Shown piece after piece: positions 22,170 through 36,562 of a stretch of 64,000 nucleotides of DNA. The notes under the pieces are model-generated. The model was not told the DNA's origin. It ran no database searches and saw nothing but the letters and a program-made list of their open reading frames with translations. This stretch comes from Planctomycetota bacterium (GTDB taxonomy: Bacteria; Planctomycetota; Phycisphaerae; Sedimentisphaerales; Anaerohalosphaeraceae). The translations under genes and the position numbers were made by a program. The first letter of the stretch is position 1; every line of letters begins with the position of its first letter. Location of the stretch: the NCBI GenBank assembly GCA_019456225.1, contig VRUI01000005.1, forward strand, positions 1-64,000. The letters run 5' to 3'.

Positions 22170-22276
22170 ATGTAAACCAGGTTTTAACTACAATTATTAA
22201 TTACTAATTACTAATTTTGGTTTCGGCCTTACGGCCGAGACTTTTTCATTTAAAAGCTGCGGGCTGGAAGCCGGCG

Positions 22277-23503: not shown

Positions 23504-24880
23504 TTAATCTTTTGTTTGATCGCTTTTTATCCCTGCGCTTGCGCTTCGGGCTTTTATTTCAAAGTATATCGTACTTTCGTGGTCTGCCTGCTTCCTGGTA
23601 ACCGGCGAGCCGAGAAGAGCAATATCTTTGCCGAGGGCGTACCTGAACGGCCTCTGGGTTACCGGGTCAAGCGGAAGCGACAGGTCAGAAATATCGTTAA
23701 GCGAGGCGGGGAGTTTGCCGCCGTGCAATGCCGCATAATATCGGATGCCTTCCAGACACTGCAATGCCGCGACGAGACGGTCAAGCTTGTTCATCTGCAA
23801 AAGGATGTCCTTACGCGAATGCGTGGGCTCTTCGGCAGGCTCGTCAGGTTCATCTTCAAATTCATCCTCAACATATATTTTATATCTCCCCTTTCCACCC
23901 ATTCGGCCTGGAAGAGTAATGTAATGTCCTGATCTTCGGCGATTCTTAGAATTATCTTCTGTCTTTGCTGGGGGCATGCTTAGGTTTACAAGTGGTTTTG
24001 GCAGGTCGGACAGCGATCTGTAGAGGCTTGGGGCTTTTGGGGACTGGACAAGTTCTTCTACGCTTTTCAGCATTACAGAGGCAGTGTTTGCGGCGGCCAT
24101 TGTCTGGATCATTGATGGGGTGTTTGCGATGTGTCTTGACATGGCTAAACCGTCGCGAATAGCTTTGACGGCGGTTTTGTATTCGCCGACAGAGGTATCC
24201 AGACGTGCCTTTAAAGCCACAACCGATGTGAGACTGTTAAGACCTTTGAGTAATGAAAATGTTCCTTTTCCGGCCTGGTCTTTTGGCCATTGGCATTGGC
24301 GCAGAAGACTGCCCCGGGCGATGAGGTCCAGCGAATTGGCGCAAGGCTTAACGATAGACGCTGCGATGTCGGTATTGAATTTGTCCATCGGCGCATCGAG
24401 CATGGCATTAATAGCGGATTGACTGAAGTCGGCCGGCAAGGCGTCAATGGCTTTGACATAAAGTTCTGCGGCATCACCGTCGGATCTTTCCATGTCAAGC
24501 GGGAGAAGGCGGTACTTAAACTGCGGCAAATCAGTGGCTGGGGAAATGCTGACACTGACAACATCGGGGAGTTTTCTGACGGCTTCGACGACGACATCAA
24601 CGACAGAACCTGGGTCATTTGGTTCGTTAGGTTCCTGGGAGCCGGTGCCGGAGTTTAACAACTTAATGGCGTTTTCGATAGTGGGATAACTCTTGACAGG
24701 ATCGGCGACTTCGGCAGGTGCTGCGGGGATCTCGGGTTTAGTGATAACCTTCGGAATATTGGGCTCAGTAAGATCGTTTGGGTCGCTGACGCTATTAGGC
24801 TCGTTTGGGTCTGCGCAGAGTGTTGCGGACATGCCAAAACAGAAAATCAAAATCGCTATTAAAAGTAAATATCGTTTCAT
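23504..24880 (-). CDS. Secreted DPNEPN-rich protein in the pseudopilin operon
   Basis: A 458-residue protein with a signal peptide (MSATLCA, cleavage at about 22). The first mature 60 residues are rich in DPNEPN and EPNIPK-type repeats, a composition I associate with exported planctomycete proteins. The main part (about 100-330) is mostly helical with no domain I recognise. A charged acidic/proline segment follows, then a C-terminal region with DPVTQRPFRYALG resembling the calcium-loop-like end of pseudopilin-associated proteins. It lies between gspE and gspF genes, 30 bases from gspF, and is therefore likely a dedicated cargo or periplasmic component of the machine. Confidence 0.6.
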   Translation of the reverse strand: MKRYLLLIAILIFCFGMSATLCADPNEPNSVSDPNDLTEPNIPKVITKPEIPAAPAEVADPVKSYPTIENAIKLLNSGTGSQEPNEPNDPGSVVDVVVEAVRKLPDVVSVSISPATDLPQFKYRLLPLDMERSDGDAAELYVKAIDALPADFSQSAINAMLDAPMDKFNTDIAASIVKPCANSLDLIARGSLLRQCQWPKDQAGKGTFSLLKGLNSLTSVVALKARLDTSVGEYKTAVKAIRDGLAMSRHIANTPSMIQTMAAANTASVMLKSVEELVQSPKAPSLYRSLSDLPKPLVNLSMPPAKTEDNSKNRRRSGHYITLPGRMGGKGRYKIYVEDEFEDEPDEPAEEPTHSRKDILLQMNKLDRLVAALQCLEGIRYYAALHGGKLPASLNDISDLSLPLDPVTQRPFRYALGKDIALLGSPVTRKQADHESTIYFEIKARSASAGIKSDQTKD

Positions 24881-24942: not shown

Positions 24943-26109
24943 TTAGTGTCGGCTTTCTGTGTTTACTTCTTCTTGCGTCGTTATCCCGCTAGTTACCAGT
25001 CGTCTTGAGTCGTGTGCCATGTTCATGTGGCCGCGGCTCTTTAAGATTGCGTCGAGCTCTTCTATGTCTGATTTGGCGAGTATTGCCTTTCGCAGTTGTC
25101 CGTCCATCATCACCATCTCTGAGATGAGTACCCTGCCGCTAAAGCCTGTATTCATGCAGCTTTGACAGCCGACTGCCTGGAAAGTACCGGTTTTTGCAAT
25201 CTCTTTTTTGCAATCTTCGCACAGCCGCCTTACGAGCCGCTGATTTAGAACCGCTGAAATGCTGGAGGTTACCTGGTATGGCTCGATCTGCATTTCGAGC
25301 AGGCGAAGAAGTGCCCCTGCCGGCGATCCGCTGTGCATTGTGCTCATAAGCAGATGGCCGGTCAGGCCGGCTTCGATGGCGATGCGTGCGGTCTCTGCGT
25401 CTCTTATCTCGCCGATCATGAGTACCTGCGGGTCCTGCCGAAGCAGCGAACGCAGCGCAACGGGAAACGTCATGTCGCCGGTGCCGGTTATCTGGACCTG
25501 TGTAACTCCTTCTATGTCTCTTTCGACCGGGTCCTCCAGCGCGACAATGCTTCGGCCTGCAAAGCGGGTGAGTATATCGCGAAGGATGGCCGCGAGCGTT
25601 GTGCTCTTTCCGCTGCCTGCAGGTCCGGTCAGCAGTAAAACGCCCTGGTTCCTGGAGGCGATCTCTTTTAGATTCGACAAAATGAAATCGGAAAAGCCAA
25701 GCTGATCAAGCGACATCAAACCGGCGTCTTCATAAAAGACCCTTATGACTGCCCGCTGGCCGTGGATCGTTGGAAAAACGGCGAGCCGCTTGTCGGTGAC
25801 ACTGCTCTCTATCGGCGTGGCGCCCGCGCCTTTTATCCGGCCTTCCTGGGGGATGTCGTTGCGGTAGGTGAGCAGTCCGCCGAGGACCTTGAGCCTTGCG
25901 ATGATATTATCGCTTATGGTTTTCGGCAGCTCGTCGACGATCTTCAACTGGCCGTCAAGGCGAAACTTGACCTGCAGCTTACGGCTGGTCGGCTCGAAAT
26001 GAATATCGCTGGCCCGCCGCGAAACCGCCTCTTGCAGAATATCGTCAACCAACTGAGAAACATCGGCGCTGGTATGCTTTCGCTTCATAATATCTTCCCT
26101 GTCAAGCAT
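24943..26109 (-). CDS. gspE: Secretion/pilus assembly ATPase, short GspE/PilB type
   Basis: A 388-residue hexameric ATPase that powers pseudopilus assembly. Visible motifs are DIHFEP in the N2 domain (about 35-40), Walker A GPAGSGKST (162-170), the Asp box around ALEDPVE, Walker B VLMIGEIRD (229-237), the His box STMHSGSP, and a tetracysteine zinc site (Cys297, Cys300, Cys315, Cys318). It lacks the N1 (MshEN) domain present in most GspE/PilB proteins, which are about 500-570 residues. It is the first gene of a seven-gene minus-strand operon. No secretin, GspL/M or prepilin peptidase is seen in the window. Confidence 0.88.
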   Translation of the reverse strand: MLDREDIMKRKHTSADVSQLVDDILQEAVSRRASDIHFEPTSRKLQVKFRLDGQLKIVDELPKTISDNIIARLKVLGGLLTYRNDIPQEGRIKGAGATPIESSVTDKRLAVFPTIHGQRAVIRVFYEDAGLMSLDQLGFSDFILSNLKEIASRNQGVLLLTGPAGSGKSTTLAAILRDILTRFAGRSIVALEDPVERDIEGVTQVQITGTGDMTFPVALRSLLRQDPQVLMIGEIRDAETARIAIEAGLTGHLLMSTMHSGSPAGALLRLLEMQIEPYQVTSSISAVLNQRLVRRLCEDCKKEIAKTGTFQAVGCQSCMNTGFSGRVLISEMVMMDGQLRKAILAKSDIEELDAILKSRGHMNMAHDSRRLVTSGITTQEEVNTESRH

Positions 26110-26234
26110 TTACGTTACAATCAGGGCCTTTCACCTTGCCCTGTCACCAATATTGACGCGCGACAGCAGGTAATAGTTACCTGAATAATCGGAATTTAAA
26201 AAAAAATAGTAAGTCATAAATCGGAAGGCGTATG

Positions 26235-26382
26235 ACTCCAGGTGCACATTAGATGCACATTAGATGTTCATTATATGCCTATTAGCCATGGTATTACACC
26301 CTTCTCTATTCAGTGATTACTGCATAAGTCTTTTGTTTGAAGGACGTTATACAACATCTTGCTTGCTGGCACAGAAATTGCT
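26235..26382 (+). promoter_or_regulatory. Sigma-54 promoter unit, copy 1
   Basis: The -24/-12 element is TGGCAC-N5-TTGCT (26367-26382), matching the sigma-54 consensus with GG and GC dinucleotides at the required spacing; the predicted start is near 26392. Upstream lies an imperfect inverted repeat AAGTCTTT-N6-AAGGACGT (26326-26347) and a tandem GCACATTAGAT block (about 26243-26266). The whole block from ACTCCA at 26235 is a diverged duplicate of the one at 29099-29247 with the same internal spacing, which supports function of the conserved parts. Confidence 0.75.
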
Positions 26383-26440
26383 TGTTATCTTGTTAATTGT
26401 TTTAAAATTCGATAGCTATTGAGAAAAAAAGTGTAGTAAA

Positions 26441-26521
26441 ATGAAGCAGATAATGGTAATTATATCATTGTTCGCTGCATCAGTTTCGAATGTGTTTGGT
26501 GCTGATAATAACGCTTTATAG
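26441..26521 (+). pseudogene. Truncated signal-peptide ORF downstream of sigma-54 unit 1
   Basis: A 26-codon frame beginning MKQIMVIISLF that reads like a lipoprotein or Sec signal peptide and then stops. In the duplicated unit further right the equivalent position is the start of a full lipoprotein gene (MKKTMVILMVL). The simplest reading is a decayed paralogue whose promoter survives and may now drive the downstream activase genes. A leader-peptide role cannot be excluded. Confidence 0.55.
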
Positions 26522-26686
26522 AAAAACAATATTCTTTGAGGGATTCTGATTCTGATTTTCGCGTTGATAATTAGAGTTGAGTGATATCAGTTTTTCGATA
26601 TTTGCGTAGAAAACTAAACAGATATTAATGTTAACTGATCTGGAGAATTGAAATGCTCTTGATTATTCTAAAATAAGGTGACTCTT

Positions 26687-27676
26687 ATGTTTGCAGTGAA
26701 GAATTGCTCCGAGCAGGAAAGTGTAACCGGGACATCATCAATGAGCCTTAATCTCAATAAATCCCGAAAAGTTGCTCTTCCCTGGATAGGTAAAGGATAC
26801 ATTAAATTACTTGCCAGATCGTTGGTCAATCTTGGCATTGATGTGCATCTGCCTCCGCCAACGACAGATAAAACGATCCGGCTTGGTGTTCGAAATACTG
26901 CTGAGATGGCATGTTTTCCACTTAAACCGACTCTGGGCAATTTCATTGAAGCTTTGGATAATGGAGCCGATACACTTTTGATGTATGATTCACAAGGCCT
27001 TTGCAGATTACGACACTACGGGAAAATCCATGAATTCACATTAAAAAGTCTGGGCTATGAGTTTGAGATGTTTAATGTCAATTTCAGCAACGTACTTCCG
27101 ATCTGCCGCAAATTAGGCGGAGCATCGTATGCAAAGATAATCAGAGAACTCATTCGTTATTATAACCGCCTCAAAAAAATGGATGAAGCGAAAGAAAAAT
27201 GGTCAACCAGCAAACCTAACATTGGCATTATCGGGGAAATATTTACATGCTGCGATGAGCGGATCAATTACGGGATAGAAAGCAAGATCTCAAAACTCGG
27301 GGCCAAACCGGTTAATACCGTAACTTTATCGTCTTTCATCAAAAATAGTTTTTTGAAGAAGATACATTTCCCTTCCCCAAGAAGACGTTACAAAAAAAAG
27401 GTCGAGGTCTATTTTAACGGCGGCCTGGGAGGGCATGCCAAAGAAAATATATCGCATCTCCTGGAACTGGTTGACAAAAAAATAGACGGTGTGCTCCACT
27501 TATTACCCATGAGCTGCATGCCTGAAACTACAATTGAACCCTTTGTAACGGCTATATGCCGAGACAATGATACACCGCTGCTTAGAATCCCGATCGATGA
27601 GAATACGGCGGAAGCAAATCTCGAAACAAGGCTGGAAACATTCATCGAACTTATTAAAATGAGGGTTAAGCAATGA
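26687..27676 (+). CDS. DUF2229-type dehydratase activase-related protein
   Basis: A 329-residue protein matching the DUF2229 half of large CoA-dehydratase activase proteins. Characteristic segments are GVRNTAEMACFPLKPTLGN with a conserved Cys, the GEIFTCCDERINYGIE segment, and LLPMSCMPETTIEP. It resembles the 2-hydroxyacyl-CoA dehydratase subunit fold with cysteines that could hold an iron-sulfur cluster. Its stop overlaps the next gene, the ATPase half, by 4 bases. In many anaerobes both halves are one giant protein; here they are split. The ATG at 26687 with AAGGTG six bases upstream is preferred over the GTG at 26678. It probably belongs to the sigma-54 unit above. Confidence 0.8.
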   Translation: MFAVKNCSEQESVTGTSSMSLNLNKSRKVALPWIGKGYIKLLARSLVNLGIDVHLPPPTTDKTIRLGVRNTAEMACFPLKPTLGNFIEALDNGADTLLMYDSQGLCRLRHYGKIHEFTLKSLGYEFEMFNVNFSNVLPICRKLGGASYAKIIRELIRYYNRLKKMDEAKEKWSTSKPNIGIIGEIFTCCDERINYGIESKISKLGAKPVNTVTLSSFIKNSFLKKIHFPSPRRRYKKKVEVYFNGGLGGHAKENISHLLELVDKKIDGVLHLLPMSCMPETTIEPFVTAICRDNDTPLLRIPIDENTAEANLETRLETFIELIKMRVKQ

Positions 27677-28635
27677 GAACATATATAGGTCTTGACATTG
27701 GCAGCGTTTCGGTAAAGTTGGCGAAGATTGACGAATTCGGGAGATTGGTCAAATCTATTTATTTACGCAACTGCGGTTTAATCGAAACAGTTATGGAAGG
27801 AATGGAGTATATTTCCGATGATTCGGAAGTTGCCGGTGTTGGAGTTACCGGAAGCGGCAGAAAGTTTGTCGGCATGCTGGTCGGTGCCGATCTGGTCAAA
27901 ACAGAAATACTGGCGCATACTTTCGGCACGTTATCTTATTATCCCGATGTCCGAACGCTTATGGATATAGGGGGAGAAGATTCGAAATTAATGATATTAA
28001 ATAACGGTATTTTAGAGGACTTCCGACTGAATTCAATCTGCTCGGCCGGTACCGGCAGTTTCCTGGAATCCATTGCCTCAAGGATGGGAATACGAATTGA
28101 AGATGTTGGAGACATTGCTTTAAATAGCAGACAGAGACTGGATTTCCCTTCCAAATGCGGGGTGTTTACTCAGTCTGCGGTAGTTTCGAAGAAAAATACA
28201 GGAGCCAGCAAGGAAGATATCCTGATGGGAGTATGCAGGTCATTAGTTTCAAATTATCTGACAATGACAAAAGGAACAAATCTTAAGCCGCCGTTTGTTT
28301 TCCAGGGAGCAACAGCAAAGAACAGTGCGATTGTTGCAGCATTTGAGGAAGGACTTGACCATGAGATTATTGTTCCTGAGTACTGCGACGTGATGGGGGC
28401 GATAGGAATTTCAATCATGACAAAGCGATTGAATCCAGCTCAAACGAATTTCAAGGGAAACAGTCTGCTCGACAAGGATTATCGCACAAAAACTGAGATT
28501 GCCGATGGGTGCGCTAATCATTGTGAACTAACAGTGCTTTTCGAAAATGATCAATATGTCGGTTGCATTGGCAATAAATGTGATAAATGTGCCTCTATTG
28601 AACATAGGCATCAAGAAGTGAGCAGGTGTGCATAG
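27673..28635 (+). CDS. BadF/HgdC-type dehydratase activase ATPase
   Basis: A 320-residue ASKHA-fold ATPase that injects an electron into 2-hydroxyacyl-CoA or benzoyl-CoA-type enzymes using ATP. The phosphate motif is LDIGSVSVKL (7-16), a second is MDIGGEDSK, and the iron-sulfur ligands are Cys123 in SICSAGTGSF and Cys162 in KCGVFTQSA; two such cysteines per monomer form the bridging [4Fe-4S] cluster of the dimer. An unusual extra C-terminal tail (about 275-320) contains six further cysteines (CANHC, CIGNKCDKC), suggesting a second cluster. No dehydratase subunits are adjacent. The enzyme is oxygen-sensitive in known cases, pointing to an anaerobic lifestyle. Confidence 0.88.
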   Translation: MRTYIGLDIGSVSVKLAKIDEFGRLVKSIYLRNCGLIETVMEGMEYISDDSEVAGVGVTGSGRKFVGMLVGADLVKTEILAHTFGTLSYYPDVRTLMDIGGEDSKLMILNNGILEDFRLNSICSAGTGSFLESIASRMGIRIEDVGDIALNSRQRLDFPSKCGVFTQSAVVSKKNTGASKEDILMGVCRSLVSNYLTMTKGTNLKPPFVFQGATAKNSAIVAAFEEGLDHEIIVPEYCDVMGAIGISIMTKRLNPAQTNFKGNSLLDKDYRTKTEIADGCANHCELTVLFENDQYVGCIGNKCDKCASIEHRHQEVSRCA

Positions 28636-28640
28636 AGTTA

Positions 28641-28668
28641 GTCAAACTGACCGGTTGGCCAGTTTGAC
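28641..28668. repeat. 28-bp palindromic element, copy 2
   Basis: GTCAAACTG and CAGTTTGAC arms around a GGTTGG-type core, immediately after the activase stop codon. The inner 24 bases are the exact reverse complement of 6768-6791. It may serve as the 3' end of the operon. Confidence 0.7.
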
Positions 28669-28896
28669 AATTACGAATTACTAATTAAGGATTCGGCCTA
28701 AGGGCCGAGGCTATTTTATTTAAAAACAGATACCACGCAAACTCTTTAATTACAGTGGTTTACCGTGTTTTTACGCTGCCTTGAATACTCCCGAGGACAA
28801 ACGTCAATCCTGCTTAAAGCAAGCCTGTGAAGGACTGCGGCAGTGAACCTGCTTAAAGCGAGCTTTTGCGGTCATTCAGCAATCAACTTTTTTTGC
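28669..28896. other. Gene-free spacer with direct repeat
   Basis: No gene is seen. An AATTACT-type repeat and a TTCGGCCTAAGGGCCGAGG palindrome (about 28691-28710) recur at about 22222 and 35709. The 12-mer CCTGCTTAAAGC occurs at 28809-28820 and again at 28848-28859, each followed by a short complementary segment that can form a small hairpin. Confidence 0.45.
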
Positions 28897-28998
28897 AAAA
28901 AAAAACCGCCCGGATCTTTGTAACTCGGAGAAGATAAAAAGCCACAAAAGCCGCGAGCGGAATATTTAGTCGATCAACTCGATCAGCATTGATCTACT
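28897..28998 (-). ncRNA. Candidate small RNA with promoter and terminator
   Basis: A strong promoter (29005-29033) would start transcription near 28998 on the minus strand. About 90 bases later there is a long hairpin whose outer arms are CCGCTCG and CGGGCGG (28906-28960 overall), followed directly by nine T residues (28897-28905). No open frame is present. The 5' part has self-complementary GATCAA/TGATC segments. The family is not recognised; similarity to known RNAs was not testable. Confidence 0.55.
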
Positions 28999-29004
28999 GT
29001 CTAT

Positions 29005-29033
29005 ATAGTACCATAATGATCCTATAAAGTCAA
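29005..29033 (-). promoter_or_regulatory. Promoter of the candidate small RNA
   Basis: On the minus strand TTGACT (29028-29033) and TACTAT (29005-29010) are 17 bases apart, close to the sigma-70 consensus. Confidence 0.6.
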
Positions 29034-29098
29034 GAGGAAAAAAACTTTTAGGAACCACGGATTTTTTTGGCTTTGCAGCCTGAAGAGAAAAACGCAGG

Positions 29099-29247
29099 AC
29101 TCCAGATGCACATAGAATGCGCATTAGATATTCATTATATGCCTATTAGCCATGATTTCACACCTTTGCCCTATTTAACGAGCACCGCATAAGTCCTTTA
29201 GTTGAAGGACTTTATATGATTTTTTGCTTGCTGGTACAGTTATTGCT
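29099..29247 (+). promoter_or_regulatory. Sigma-54 promoter unit, copy 2
   Basis: TGGTAC-N5-TTGCT (29232-29247) is a sigma-54 -24/-12 element. A perfect inverted repeat, AAGTCCTT-N6-AAGGACTT (29191-29212), lies 41 bases upstream of it, exactly the spacing in copy 1. Further upstream the ATTCATTATATGCCTATTAG block is shared with copy 1. It drives the lipoprotein gene at 29306. Confidence 0.75.
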
Positions 29248-29305
29248 TATTATCTTGTTAATTGTTTTGAAATTCAACAGCTATTAAGGAAGAAAGGGCA
29301 GTAAA

Positions 29306-29710
29306 ATGAAAAAGACAATGGTAATTTTAATGGTACTGGGCGCAGCATTAGCTGGGTGTAAAAAGACCAGTTCAACAGAAGCAACAGAAACAGTAGTAAA
29401 CGATCCAGCAGGCGTCTACACTTTAGTTACGGTCGATGGGGTCAAAATCCCCGGAACTTTTTCTCACGGTAAAAGAAAGGTAATGCTGCATTCGGGAAGC
29501 TTCATAATCAATGCCGATAATACGTGCGTCAGTAAAACTGTCTTTGGCTCGCAAAAAATCGCTCGCCAGGTCAAAGCGACGTACACCCAGGATGGTTCAA
29601 CATTGAACATGCAATGGATCGGGGCCGGCAGGACCAGGGGAACCATCAAGGGCGACACTTTTACGATGAATAACGAAGGGATGATTTTTTCGTACAAAAA
29701 GCAACCTTAA
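29306..29710 (+). CDS. Small lipoprotein under sigma-54 control
   Basis: A 134-residue lipoprotein precursor: signal peptide, then the lipobox LAGC with Cys at residue 18. The mature part (about 35-130) has the rhythm of a lipocalin-like small beta-barrel domain (AGVYTLVTVDG, FIINADNTC, NMQWIGAGRTRGTIKGD, TFTMNNEGMIFSY), as in lipocalin-like or META-like lipoproteins. Function unknown. A GGAAG ribosome binding site precedes the ATG. Its promoter unit and signal peptide are duplicated, in decayed form, at 26235-26521. Confidence 0.75.
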   Translation: MKKTMVILMVLGAALAGCKKTSSTEATETVVNDPAGVYTLVTVDGVKIPGTFSHGKRKVMLHSGSFIINADNTCVSKTVFGSQKIARQVKATYTQDGSTLNMQWIGAGRTRGTIKGDTFTMNNEGMIFSYKKQP

Positions 29711-29732
29711 CGGCTTGATACAGTTTGGGAAA

Positions 29733-29876
29733 ATGCAAAGCAAGTACTATAGGGGAGACTACGAGGAAAGCGGGTATTATTCACAATGGCAGGAGATGTA
29801 CCGAAACAGCGGGTATTTAAACGGCAATGGATACCTCTATGGAAAACGCGTTGGTATACTTTCGTTGAGTAAATAG
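29733..29876 (+). CDS. Possible Tyr/Gly-rich micro-protein
   Basis: A 47-codon frame 22 bases after the lipoprotein stop, encoding a Tyr-, Gly- and Asn-rich peptide with repeats such as ESGYY and NSGYLNGNGYLYG. The composition is non-random, and the position suggests co-transcription with the lipoprotein, but the ribosome binding site is weak. It could equally be a decayed gene end. Confidence 0.35.
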   Translation: MQSKYYRGDYEESGYYSQWQEMYRNSGYLNGNGYLYGKRVGILSLSK

Positions 29877-33308: not shown

Positions 33309-33411
33309 TTATACAAATTTGGTATTTTTCTATATTTATGCAGGTTTTTTGGGTTTTTTGTTTTTTGCGAAAAAATCGAGTAACGTATTCATTGCTTTCT
33401 GTGAAAGTTGA

Positions 33412-34302
33412 CTATTTTGCCAGGCGGTTTAATCGCTGTGCTGCAATTTCCAGGAACCTCTCTTGCAACTGGACAGTTAGCAGCGAATTGGTGATCATAT
33501 CTGCAAACTTATTACTCAAGGCGATTAGTTCGGCGATTTTACTTTCCGCATATTTTGCCTCTATCTGCATACCTTTTGCAAAGGCAAGGAAATCATCTCT
33601 TTTAAGACGGTTTCGTTTACCATTAAGCGTTAAGGCCATTTCCTCTGCTTCTTCTGGAATTACCAGCCTTGATGAAACAAGATCATAAGCCGGGCTAAGC
33701 GCAACAACACCCTTTTGATCAGTCAGCAGAGAAAAGTTTTTCCGATGAGCGTCGCCATTGCCGATAGCAAAGTTAAAAATTGTCATCTCGTAAAATCGCT
33801 GAAGTTCAAGCGGAGCAAATGCGCAGTAATCACGAATAACCCTGGCAATTTGCTCATGGCTTCCGGCGTATTTGTCAGGGCCGCCGAGCACCTGATGAAT
33901 GTCTTCGCAGGAGAGCTTTTCCATGCGATTACCTTTTTTGAAACGATCAAATCGCTTGACCAGATAGGCCGGCGAACCGTCTGACAATTCAAGCAAGATC
34001 GACCGGGCAGTATTAAGGCCAAACCGGTTGCCCATTTGCATGCAGAGATATTCATTCTGCGGCAATTGAGCAAACTCCTGGGTTTGCGGCTTAAGAATAT
34101 ACTGGCCGTCGCGGGCAACCGGCAGCAGTTGGTCGCCCTCAAGACGAACGGAAAGCTTTGGCTGAACACCCGATATACTGAGTTTGCCGGCGAGCTTTTG
34201 AGCTTCGGTGCTGATCTGATCTAAGCTGATAGATATACCCGGCCTGACAGGCTTGCCAAACATCGCTTTCAGTTGTTTGTCGCTATAATCAATCCTGGTC
34301 AT
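33412..34302 (-). CDS. hipT: HipT-type Ser/Thr kinase toxin
   Basis: A 296-residue HipA-fold kinase without the N-terminal subdomain 1 found in HipA. The glycine-rich loop is SISGVQPK (42-49), preceded by the Ser-Ile-Ser pair that is autophosphorylated in E. coli HipT. Lys116 in YLVKRFDR may bind ATP. The catalytic loop AIGNGDAHRKNF holds Asp184 and Asn189, and SPAYDLVSS holds the metal-binding Asp207. In enteropathogenic E. coli HipT phosphorylates tryptophanyl-tRNA synthetase and halts growth, and HipS neutralises it. The target here is inferred from that family. It overlaps the hipS-like gene by 14 bases. Confidence 0.88.
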   Translation of the reverse strand: MTRIDYSDKQLKAMFGKPVRPGISISLDQISTEAQKLAGKLSISGVQPKLSVRLEGDQLLPVARDGQYILKPQTQEFAQLPQNEYLCMQMGNRFGLNTARSILLELSDGSPAYLVKRFDRFKKGNRMEKLSCEDIHQVLGGPDKYAGSHEQIARVIRDYCAFAPLELQRFYEMTIFNFAIGNGDAHRKNFSLLTDQKGVVALSPAYDLVSSRLVIPEEAEEMALTLNGKRNRLKRDDFLAFAKGMQIEAKYAESKIAELIALSNKFADMITNSLLTVQLQERFLEIAAQRLNRLAK

Positions 34303-34618
34303 TTTTGACCTCCTGCAAACTTACAGCCCCGATGCAATCGTCACAGGTTCGCATCAATAGCCCAAATGTATCATTTGCATCAACCTTTATTGTAGGCGCA
34401 ACAATGCGAAGATACCAGCCCTCCGGAACCAGGCCCGCGAAAAAGGAAAATATAGTCTCCGATTCAAACGCCTCGGCTTGCAGCGGCAGCGTCATAGAAA
34501 TCGCAGTTCCATCGGCTAAGTAGTCAGCATCATAGACAAATCTGTAACCGCCATTGGGCAGTTCGCTAAGAGTGCCGGCAAATTTTTTGCGGTAGTAAAC
34601 TTTTGCTTGCCGGGTCAT
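34289..34618 (-). CDS. hipS: HipS-like antitoxin (HipA N-terminal domain)
   Basis: A 109-residue protein equivalent to the detached N-subdomain 1 of HipA: YYRKKFAGTLSELPNGGYRFVYDADYL, then ISMTLPLQ, FFAGLVPEGWYL and a final LMRTCDDCIGAVSL. As a stand-alone gene between a small HTH gene and a truncated HipA kinase it is diagnostic of the tripartite HipBST arrangement, in which HipS rather than HipB is the antitoxin. It overlaps hipB by 4 bases and hipT by 14. Confidence 0.87.
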   Translation of the reverse strand: MTRQAKVYYRKKFAGTLSELPNGGYRFVYDADYLADGTAISMTLPLQAEAFESETIFSFFAGLVPEGWYLRIVAPTIKVDANDTFGLLMRTCDDCIGAVSLQEVKNDQD

Positions 34619-34809
34619 GATTTACGCCTTAAACATAGCTCATAGCCCAGCAAGTCAAGAACCTGATTGACCTTGTCAAGACGAACCGTTTGCTTACCCT
34701 GCTCAAGTTCCCTGACAAACCTCAGACCGACTCCGGCCCGCCTTGCCAATTCAGCTTGGGTCAAACCAGCGGCCTTACGCATCGCCATAATTTCTTTTGC
34801 AAACCCCAC
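34615..34809 (-). CDS. hipB: HipB-like HTH repressor
   Basis: A 64-residue helix-turn-helix protein of the Cro/CI type: GLTQAELARRAGVGLRFV, recognition region, then RELEQGKQTVRLDKVNQVL. It starts with GTG at 34809. Three palindromic candidate operators lie between 34812 and 34974, one of them overlapping the ribosome binding region, which supports autorepression as in other hip operons. Confidence 0.87.
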   Translation of the reverse strand: MGFAKEIMAMRKAAGLTQAELARRAGVGLRFVRELEQGKQTVRLDKVNQVLDLLGYELCLRRKS

Positions 34810-34974: not shown

Positions 34975-35102
34975 TCACCTAGTTTCAAATACCATTATCT
35001 TTCCAAAATATTTATTTAATTTTATTATTTTGCGAAAAAATCGAGTAACATAATCGTTCCCCCGTGCGTCATTATATATGTTAACACAATCAAAGGACGT
35101 CT

Positions 35103-35657: not shown

Positions 35658-35740
35658 TAATTACGAATTACTAATTACTAATTACTAATTACTAATTACT
35701 AATTTTGGATTCGGCCTTAGGGCCGAGGCTGATTTATTGA
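35658..35740. repeat. AATTACT heptanucleotide repeat and GGCC palindrome
   Basis: About five and a half tandem copies of AATTACT (35663-35702), then a TTCGGCCTTAGGGCCGAGG palindrome. The same AATTACT-plus-palindrome arrangement occurs at about 22197-22235 and 28669-28711. Confidence 0.8.
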
Positions 35741-35825
35741 TGAGCAGCCTCTATGCAAGTTGTTGCGGGTGAAAAGTGATGAGACCGTTAATAAAGCTTA
35801 TTTATTAATTGAAACTGGTTTAAAA

Positions 35826-36320: not shown

Positions 36321-36562
36321 CAAACAAAAGCCCGAAGCGTGAACGCAGAGATAACCCCACATTCAAAAAACGGCATTACCGGCAGCTTACCCATCTCACC
36401 AAAAAGAAACCCGGTTTCTTTAATTCTTTTGCATTGTAAAGGACTATGCTGTGGGCAAGATGCCCTTGTGCTGCCGCGCTTTTTAAAAATAACTCTTGCC
36501 AATCTTTAATACTACCTTTATACTTGTCGGCGGTTAATATTTAATTTCTAAAGGAGTAGATT

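Follow-up and report, generated by a model that had tools for sequence, protein, structure and literature searches.

The window analysed in this work is a stretch of 64,000 nucleotides, belonging to contig C113 of the 4.45-Mb genome of a Planctomycetota bacterium (Anaerohalosphaeraceae). It embeds two very similar promoter blocks, one (copy 1) located upstream of a pair of reductase-like genes and the other (copy 2) upstream of a lipoprotein gene. The twin blocks are probably two promoters of one and the same Anaerohalosphaeraceae sigma-54 regulon, which would remodel membrane lipids and the cell envelope and be driven by a bacterial enhancer-binding protein (bEBP); the architecture of the promoters, the homology of the genes, their co-location and the specificity of the motifs among the scored sites, all read from the sequence, point in this direction.

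According to this model, each promoter would consist of an upstream element (about 114 bases before the T of the -24 motif), a TAAGT dyad (at about -42) and a -24/-12 element; the upstream element would most likely be bound by a bEBP with a helical N-terminal domain of no assigned family, encoded on contig C19 of the same genome, which would drive the sigma-54 polymerase. The putative targets are a split, half-size reductase similar to PlsA/Ger (plasmalogen synthase/glycerol ester reductase), an operon for a VIT-VWA protein and a rhombosortase, a BipL-like phospholipase with an LplT-PlsC-Aas fusion, a CAAX protease and the lipoprotein. Among the relatives, one or a few operons hold this set of genes, frequently together with a B12-radical SAM enzyme; in the genome under study the set is split up, each piece with its own promoter.

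Structure of the twin promoter blocks

A genome-wide similarity search aligned positions 26234-26464 with positions 29098-29329 (81% identity, E 1.7e-58), defining a promoter block of 232 bp; a chance likeness of the two blocks is ruled out by this alignment. Only two full copies exist in the genome, the next best match covering 28 bp (E 0.003). An earlier note on this DNA had described two blocks sharing a -24/-12 element, an upstream inverted repeat and an upstream conserved block, and had proposed that they derive from a segmental duplication and are controlled by sigma-54. The alignment confirms the description and, together with the number of full copies, supports the duplication, while the element matches argue for sigma-54 control.

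The identity between the copies is unevenly distributed: 52/60 positions in the upstream block, 21/31 in the linker, 22/26 in the dyad, 12/17 between the dyad and the -24 motif, 13/16 in the -24/-12 element, 49/58 in the leader and 20/24 in the first eight codons, followed by 22/57. The upstream block, the dyad, the -24/-12 element and the leader are better conserved than the linkers, and the likeness ends eight codons into the frame.

The -24/-12 element of copy 1 (TGGCACAGAAATTGCT, 26367-26382, plus strand, as all the features of the two blocks and the genes behind them) reads TGGCAC-N5-TTGCT and is conserved in copy 2, where the sigma-54 pattern is TGGTAC-N5-TTGCT (TGGTACAGTTATTGCT, 29232-29247). 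Sigma-54 promoters are characterised by GG and GC dinucleotides at the -24/-12 spacing, and both copies possess them. The genome encodes rpoN (PF04552, 188.3 bits, cut-off 22.8), and the strict TGGCAC-N5-TTGCT motif occurs at six sites in it, against three for the reversed control. The dyad of copy 1 (TAAGTCTTTTGTTTGAAGGACGTTA, 26325-26349) begins 42 bases before the -24 T, and that of copy 2 (TAAGTCCTTTAGTTGAAGGACTTTA, 29190-29214) follows the conserved dyad pattern. As the earlier note had reported, copy 2 has a perfect inverted repeat (AAGTCCTT-N6-AAGGACTT, starting 41 bases 5' of the -24 T), whereas that of copy 1 is imperfect, with 6/8 matching positions.

The upstream element of copy 1, ATGCAC-N7-GTTCAT-N3-ATGC (26253-26278), lies 114 bases before the -24 T, within an 11-bp array (26243-26290); that of copy 2 (29117-29142) lies 115 bases before it. 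The upstream block is indeed an 11-bp tandem array (TRF score of 51 for 26243-26278 in copy 1), whose 11-bp autocorrelation was reached by 0/20000 shuffles for copy 1 and by 66/20000 for copy 2. The conserved block noticed earlier is real, but its tandem structure and its status as a conserved element had been missed. A search of Rfam with the region 25900-29800 (E up to 1) gave no match.

Genes located behind the two copies

Copy 1 leads into a leader open reading frame (ORF) of 26 residues (26441-26521), which carries the start of a signal peptide and is likely a decaying leader. It had been regarded as a truncated version of the signal peptide of the lipoprotein; this holds for the first eight codons, which align with the lipoprotein start, but the likeness ends there. 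The lipoprotein behind copy 2 (29306-29710, 134 aa), probably a recent recruit to the regulon, is a complete ORF with a lipobox recognisable by eye, as previously described, and no Pfam family was found for it.

The two genes following the leader ORF had been considered an orphan pair of activases. The first one (26687-27676, the orthologs beginning at the equivalent of 26741) encodes a reductase/dehydratase-like subunit with DUF2229 and HGD-D domains, matching PF09989 (39.1 bits) and PF06050 (29 bits), both above the Pfam cut-off; no other DUF2229 gene was found in the genome. Its structural model, which is weak (pLDDT 66.2, six sequences), matches BzdN, HadC and DCCP subunits with E values down to 4e-7; of the 16 fold matches at E 0.001, 13 belong to the benzoyl-CoA reductase/2-hydroxyacyl-CoA dehydratase/DCCP group and three to an acetyl-CoA synthetase. 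The second gene (27673-28635) encodes an ATP-dependent activase of the BcrAD/BadFG family (PF01869, 140.6 bits; TIGR00241 above cut-off; PDB relatives 4eht and 1hux). On the basis of these domain and fold matches, the pair is, as judged from sequence and model, a cluster-type subunit with its ATP-driven reductase (activase), thus neither two activases nor an orphan set.

Orthologs of the pair and the candidate regulator

The comparison set consisted of 59 genomes, including the one under study, which is the only member of its genus among them. Orthologs of the subunit were disclosed in four of the 59 (its own included) and also in five named loci of metagenome-assembled genomes (Anaerohalosphaeraceae, Phycisphaerae and Sedimentisphaerales bacterium). 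All five loci have a -24/-12-like site before the pair or its operon, with TAAGT (four loci) or TAAGA (one locus) 41-43 bases upstream; TAAGT is present in eight of the nine promoters compared, which include the twins and two of contig C19. In four of the five loci (with the exception of L065), a divergent gene for a sigma-54 activator of about 490-509 aa adjoins that site. In L067 and L068, a promoter and a signal-peptide stub precede the reductase pair, as in copy 1; the small ORF located before the reductase gene in L068 (MEELVSQKTHEIVGYIIAGILL...) resembles the start of the VIT-VWA protein of L119.

The genome under study encodes an ortholog of this activator (56% identity over 490 aa) on another contig (C19:40798-42267). 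It matches Sigma54_activat (PF00158, 141.5 bits, cut-off 20.2), and its translation contains KKGAFTGAV, i.e., the GAFTGA loop that is a hallmark of bEBPs. Its first 190 residues have no Pfam match, and neither does its C-terminus match any Pfam helix-turn-helix (HTH) domain, an HTH-like tail being recognised by eye. The N-domain of the relatives was modelled as helical (pLDDT 75.8); a Foldseek search with this model yielded no PDB match at E 0.001. This N-domain is present in 30/59 genomes; G031 and G035, with weak matches (E 2e-13 and 2e-17), were counted as bEBP-negative, and none of the 57 promoters scored below is theirs. A signature allowed 25 of the 30 bEBP loci to be oriented, and in 20 of these a divergent TGGYAY-N5-TTGY site lies within 420 bases; 19 of the 20 sites have a dyad score of at least 10 of 14. 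The first long divergent gene encodes, by eye, a B12-radical SAM protein in 12 of these 20 loci.

The upstream element defines a set of promoters

In other genomes, 12 promoters adjoining a bEBP gene served to train a matrix (consensus ATGTACATC..GTGTACAT..TATGT; null scores of 5.1 at 99% and 10.2 at 99.9%). It was applied to 57 promoters with a dyad score of at least 10, near-identical ones having been merged and those scoring lower, such as L067, left out. All 20 bEBP-adjacent promoters (12 of them used for training) exceed the 99% null, as do 14/29 non-adjacent promoters of bEBP-positive genomes versus 0/8 in bEBP-negative genomes (Fisher p 0.015, kinship not corrected). The element is found at a fixed offset in promoters without an adjoining bEBP, that is, the twins, C19:37460, C115:25301, L065, L146, L149, L150 and L154. 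Three of these, L146 (G006), L150 (G019) and L154 (G013), with scores of 16.7, 18.8 and 14.3, precede genes resembling, by eye, those for glycosyltransferases and acyltransferases/CDP-alcohol transferases.

The genome under study contains 106 TGGYAY-N5-TTGY sites (control 51). Among the 47 sigma-54-like sites scored, the matrix picks five, with scores of 24.7 (copy 1), 18.9 (copy 2), 18.5, 14.9 and 14.8, the next one being 2.7; the offsets of the five upstream elements range from -114 to -117, and no part of the window other than the two blocks exceeds 12.5. The five sites precede the reductase pair, the lipoprotein, the VIT-VWA/rhombosortase operon, the phospholipase/LplT-PlsC-Aas operon and a gene for a CAAX protease (PF02517). 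The last site, the third in score, was found by the motif alone, and a similar protein ends, by eye, the lipid operon of G011. The idea of a sigma-54 regulon is supported and extended to at least five promoters of this genome (the twins, two on C19 and the one before the CAAX protease); further members may exist.

A gene set with a probable role in lipid remodelling

The divergent operon of C19 codes for a 73-aa protein, a VIT-VWA protein with a GlyGly-CTERM-like tail (by eye) and a rhombosortase (TIGR03902, 100.7 bits, cut-off 84). The second C19 promoter precedes a gene for a BipL-like hydrolase (248 bits, below the cut-off of 450), followed by one for an LplT-PlsC-Aas fusion (NF006386, 1351 bits, cut-off 1221); BipL of Pseudomonas aeruginosa is described as a predicted phospholipase (PMC10597414). 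In L069, a single stretch carries genes for the VIT-VWA protein, a rhomboid protein, the B12-radical SAM protein, the pair, an OmpH-like protein, the hydrolase and a zinc-ribbon protein.

The lipid gene set of G009, G011 and G008 includes one single protein of 1452-1504 aa, with two activation domains plus DUF2229 and HGD-D; that of G009 also has a PlsY-type acyltransferase. Within the G009 protein, the window activase aligns with the second activation domain (Act2; 35%, E 5e-55); the subunit aligns with each of the two Red domains (19 and 23%). The form with two activation domains has been linked to Ger (PMC13274423). Both domain types of PlsA/Ger, activation (PF01869) and reduction (PF09989, PF06050), are present in the pair; in PlsA/Ger, two reduction domains share a single chain with one or two activation domains, whereas the window encodes two separate chains (about 311 and 320 aa). 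From the lipid gene set of the relatives, its Ger-like protein and the alignments of the pair, we infer that the gene set remodels lipids, the reduction of esters to ethers being the most likely chemistry of the pair.

The dyad and the heat-shock promoters

A fixed-register inverted repeat gave only a moderate signal over all nine promoters (best sum 39; mean 23.0, standard deviation 4.9 over 679 registers); for this reason, the dyad was scored by a template drawn from the compared promoters, excluding those of dnaK and C115:25301 of the genome under study. Both of these dyads reach 11/14, a score attained by 38/20000 random positions. The pattern TAAG-N37-39-TGGYAY-N5-TTGY has 85 matches in the 59 genomes (control 26) and five in the genome under study (control 0), four of which are the twins and the two C19 promoters; the fifth, C72:72285, lies by eye in a flagellar cluster and was excluded from the regulon. 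A PEP-CTERM regulator was discarded as owner of the dyad (PEP_resp_reg, score 152, cut-off 503).

In relatives, the dyad and the -24/-12 element, without the upstream element, also precede dnaK, hsp20, clpB and htrA (genes named by eye); the dnaK gene of the genome under study has a TAAAC...ACTTA dyad and an upstream-element score of -5.2. Judging from this, the lipid regulon seems to be marked by the upstream element, and the dyad seems to be a stress input common to both kinds of promoter; shared with dnaK, the dyad would probably add a heat or protein-stress input to the lipid regulon. Sigma-54-like sites near two GroEL-like genes, L191 (G000:C93:18380-19540) and L194 (G000:C97:1290-2450), have neither dyad nor upstream element, suggesting that GroEL may use another activator.

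Alternative explanations

Some observations weigh against a bEBP-driven lipid regulon. No homolog of the B12-radical SAM protein was found in locus L082, the rest of the genome not having been searched for one. The pair differs from the single four-domain chain of PlsA/Ger, and its identity to the latter is low. Of the 57 promoters with the dyad, eight come from genomes lacking a strong bEBP match, so that the dyad may be bound by another activator. Five of the 25 oriented bEBP loci have no divergent site, and 5/30 could not be oriented; moreover, in bEBP-adjacent loci the upstream element could partly be the promoter of the bEBP gene itself. One might thus imagine the bEBP binding the TAAGT dyad, with the upstream element being the site of a second regulator or mainly the bEBP's own sigma-70 promoter: the dyad is also present at bEBP-adjacent promoters, where the element, read backwards, resembles TTGACA-N18-TACATT (by eye). 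This is unlikely, however, given the dyads of genomes without a strong bEBP match (e.g., the single-contig G026), the same offset of the element in promoters without an adjoining bEBP, and its distribution between bEBP-positive and bEBP-negative genomes (14/29 versus 0/8, p 0.015). A reading of the pair as an ATP-dependent reductase of the double-cubane or acyl-CoA type, with a small molecule rather than membrane lipids as its substrate, also seems rather unlikely. One activase with one HGD-D-like subunit does resemble the DCCP:DCCP-R set-up, and the fold matches include DCCP, BzdN and HadC; but the pair falls far under the NCBIfam cut-offs (double-cubane reductase NF040772, 16 bits versus 350; HadC, the 2-hydroxyacyl-CoA dehydratase NF052456, 16.2 versus 700), its neighbours are lipid genes, and in the sister loci this gene set includes a PlsA/Ger-like protein.

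Concerning the history of the twins, the earlier note assumed that the lipoprotein promoter had been copied and captured by the activase operon. Copy 2, with its perfect repeat, precedes an intact gene and copy 1 a stub, as this scenario would predict; but all five ortholog loci of the activase operon have the -24/-12 site with TAAGT or TAAGA, whereas G051 alone among the 58 other genomes has a lipoprotein homolog (51% identity), with no -24/-12 element plus dyad found upstream of it. Because of this distribution, the capture is quite improbable and the direction was probably the reverse, with the lipoprotein recruited to a regulon to which the reductase operon already belonged; in the simplest history, the reductase promoter would have been duplicated along with the beginning of its leader ORF, and this copy would have come to lie before the lipoprotein gene. 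It is very improbable that copy 1 is a defunct duplicate and that the reductase genes are read from another promoter. The stub nature of its leader ORF and the 165 bases between this ORF and the following start would fit such a view, but the -24 element of copy 1 is the better of the two, its upstream element scores highest in the genome (24.7), and the elements are more conserved between the copies than the linkers.

In a bolder form, to be taken as tentative, the bEBP-driven regulon would be run by a dedicated new bEBP family that switches ester phospholipids to ether lipids (perhaps modified by the B12-radical SAM enzyme) in Sedimentisphaerales, with a heat-shock input through the dyad of dnaK/hsp20/clpB and a split reductase representing a minimal two-protein Ger. 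In any form of the model, the binding and activation by the bEBP, its trigger and the ester-to-ether reduction are inferred from the sequence.

Other repeats and genes in the window

A 69-nt repeat is present three times (22192-22260, 28662-28730 and 35680-35748; 75-84% alike), with AATTACTAATTACTAATT followed by the hairpin GGCCTTAGGGCCGAG and a T-rich tail; it may be a repeated terminator-like element. A dispersed 33-nt repeat, whose arms are 85% complementary, is found at 23527-23559 and 36322-36354, and also in L082 past 11461, on the minus strand; a further copy lies, by eye, between the C19:37460 promoter and the BipL-like gene. On the minus strand, three small ORFs (33412-34809) form what we take to be a HipB/HipA-type set (HTH, N- and C-terminal HipA parts). 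A direct repeat (TTTTTTGCGAAAAAATCGAGTAAC) occurs at 33355-33393 and 35020-35058 (85% alike).

Comparison with known systems

How ether and other unusual membrane lipids are switched on in bacteria is little known, and a candidate regulator, its likely site and its predicted targets can now be named. The split pair, with one activation and one reduction domain, could reveal the smallest working unit of the PlsA/Ger-type chemistry, and the whole system might represent a case of one operon broken up, whose pieces are held together by copies of the same three-element promoter. No such regulon was found in the literature searched, i.e., openly licensed PMC papers.

The promoters of the second class, without the upstream element, belong to a known trend, since predicted sigma-54 promoters are enriched before GroEL, DnaK, DnaJ, GrpE and IbpA in Planctomycetota, including Phycisphaerae (PMC12316311), and dnaK of the genome under study fits it; the activator, the dyad, the upstream element and the lipid set do not appear in the excerpts of that paper. 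Similarly, the portions consulted of a study on Desulfovibrio sigma-54 report no heat-shock or ether-lipid regulon (PMC4641369), and in those of a Rhodopirellula study rpoN is not regulated under heat shock (PMC2754498). The C19 bEBP shares with RtcR, NorR, PspF and other bEBPs the AAA+ sigma-54 interaction domain with GAFTGA, but it has an N-terminal domain without a Pfam match and scores below the cut-offs of all the NCBIfam equivalogs compared (RtcR 179/650, NorR 162/476, PspF 141/444).

The likeness to PlsA/Ger (PMC13274423, PMC9702350, PMC12838417) consists in the activation domain PF01869 and the DUF2229/HGD-D reduction domains, and in the two-activation-domain form of the sister loci; here, however, one activation and one reduction domain are carried by two chains, and sigma-54 control is not described in the excerpts of those papers. 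Lastly, the rhombosortase of C19, above its cut-off and encoded beside a GlyGly-CTERM-like VIT-VWA protein, recalls the rhombosortase/GlyGly-CTERM system (PMC3237569, PMC6219818), with the difference that here it would belong, together with lipid enzymes, to a predicted sigma-54 regulon.

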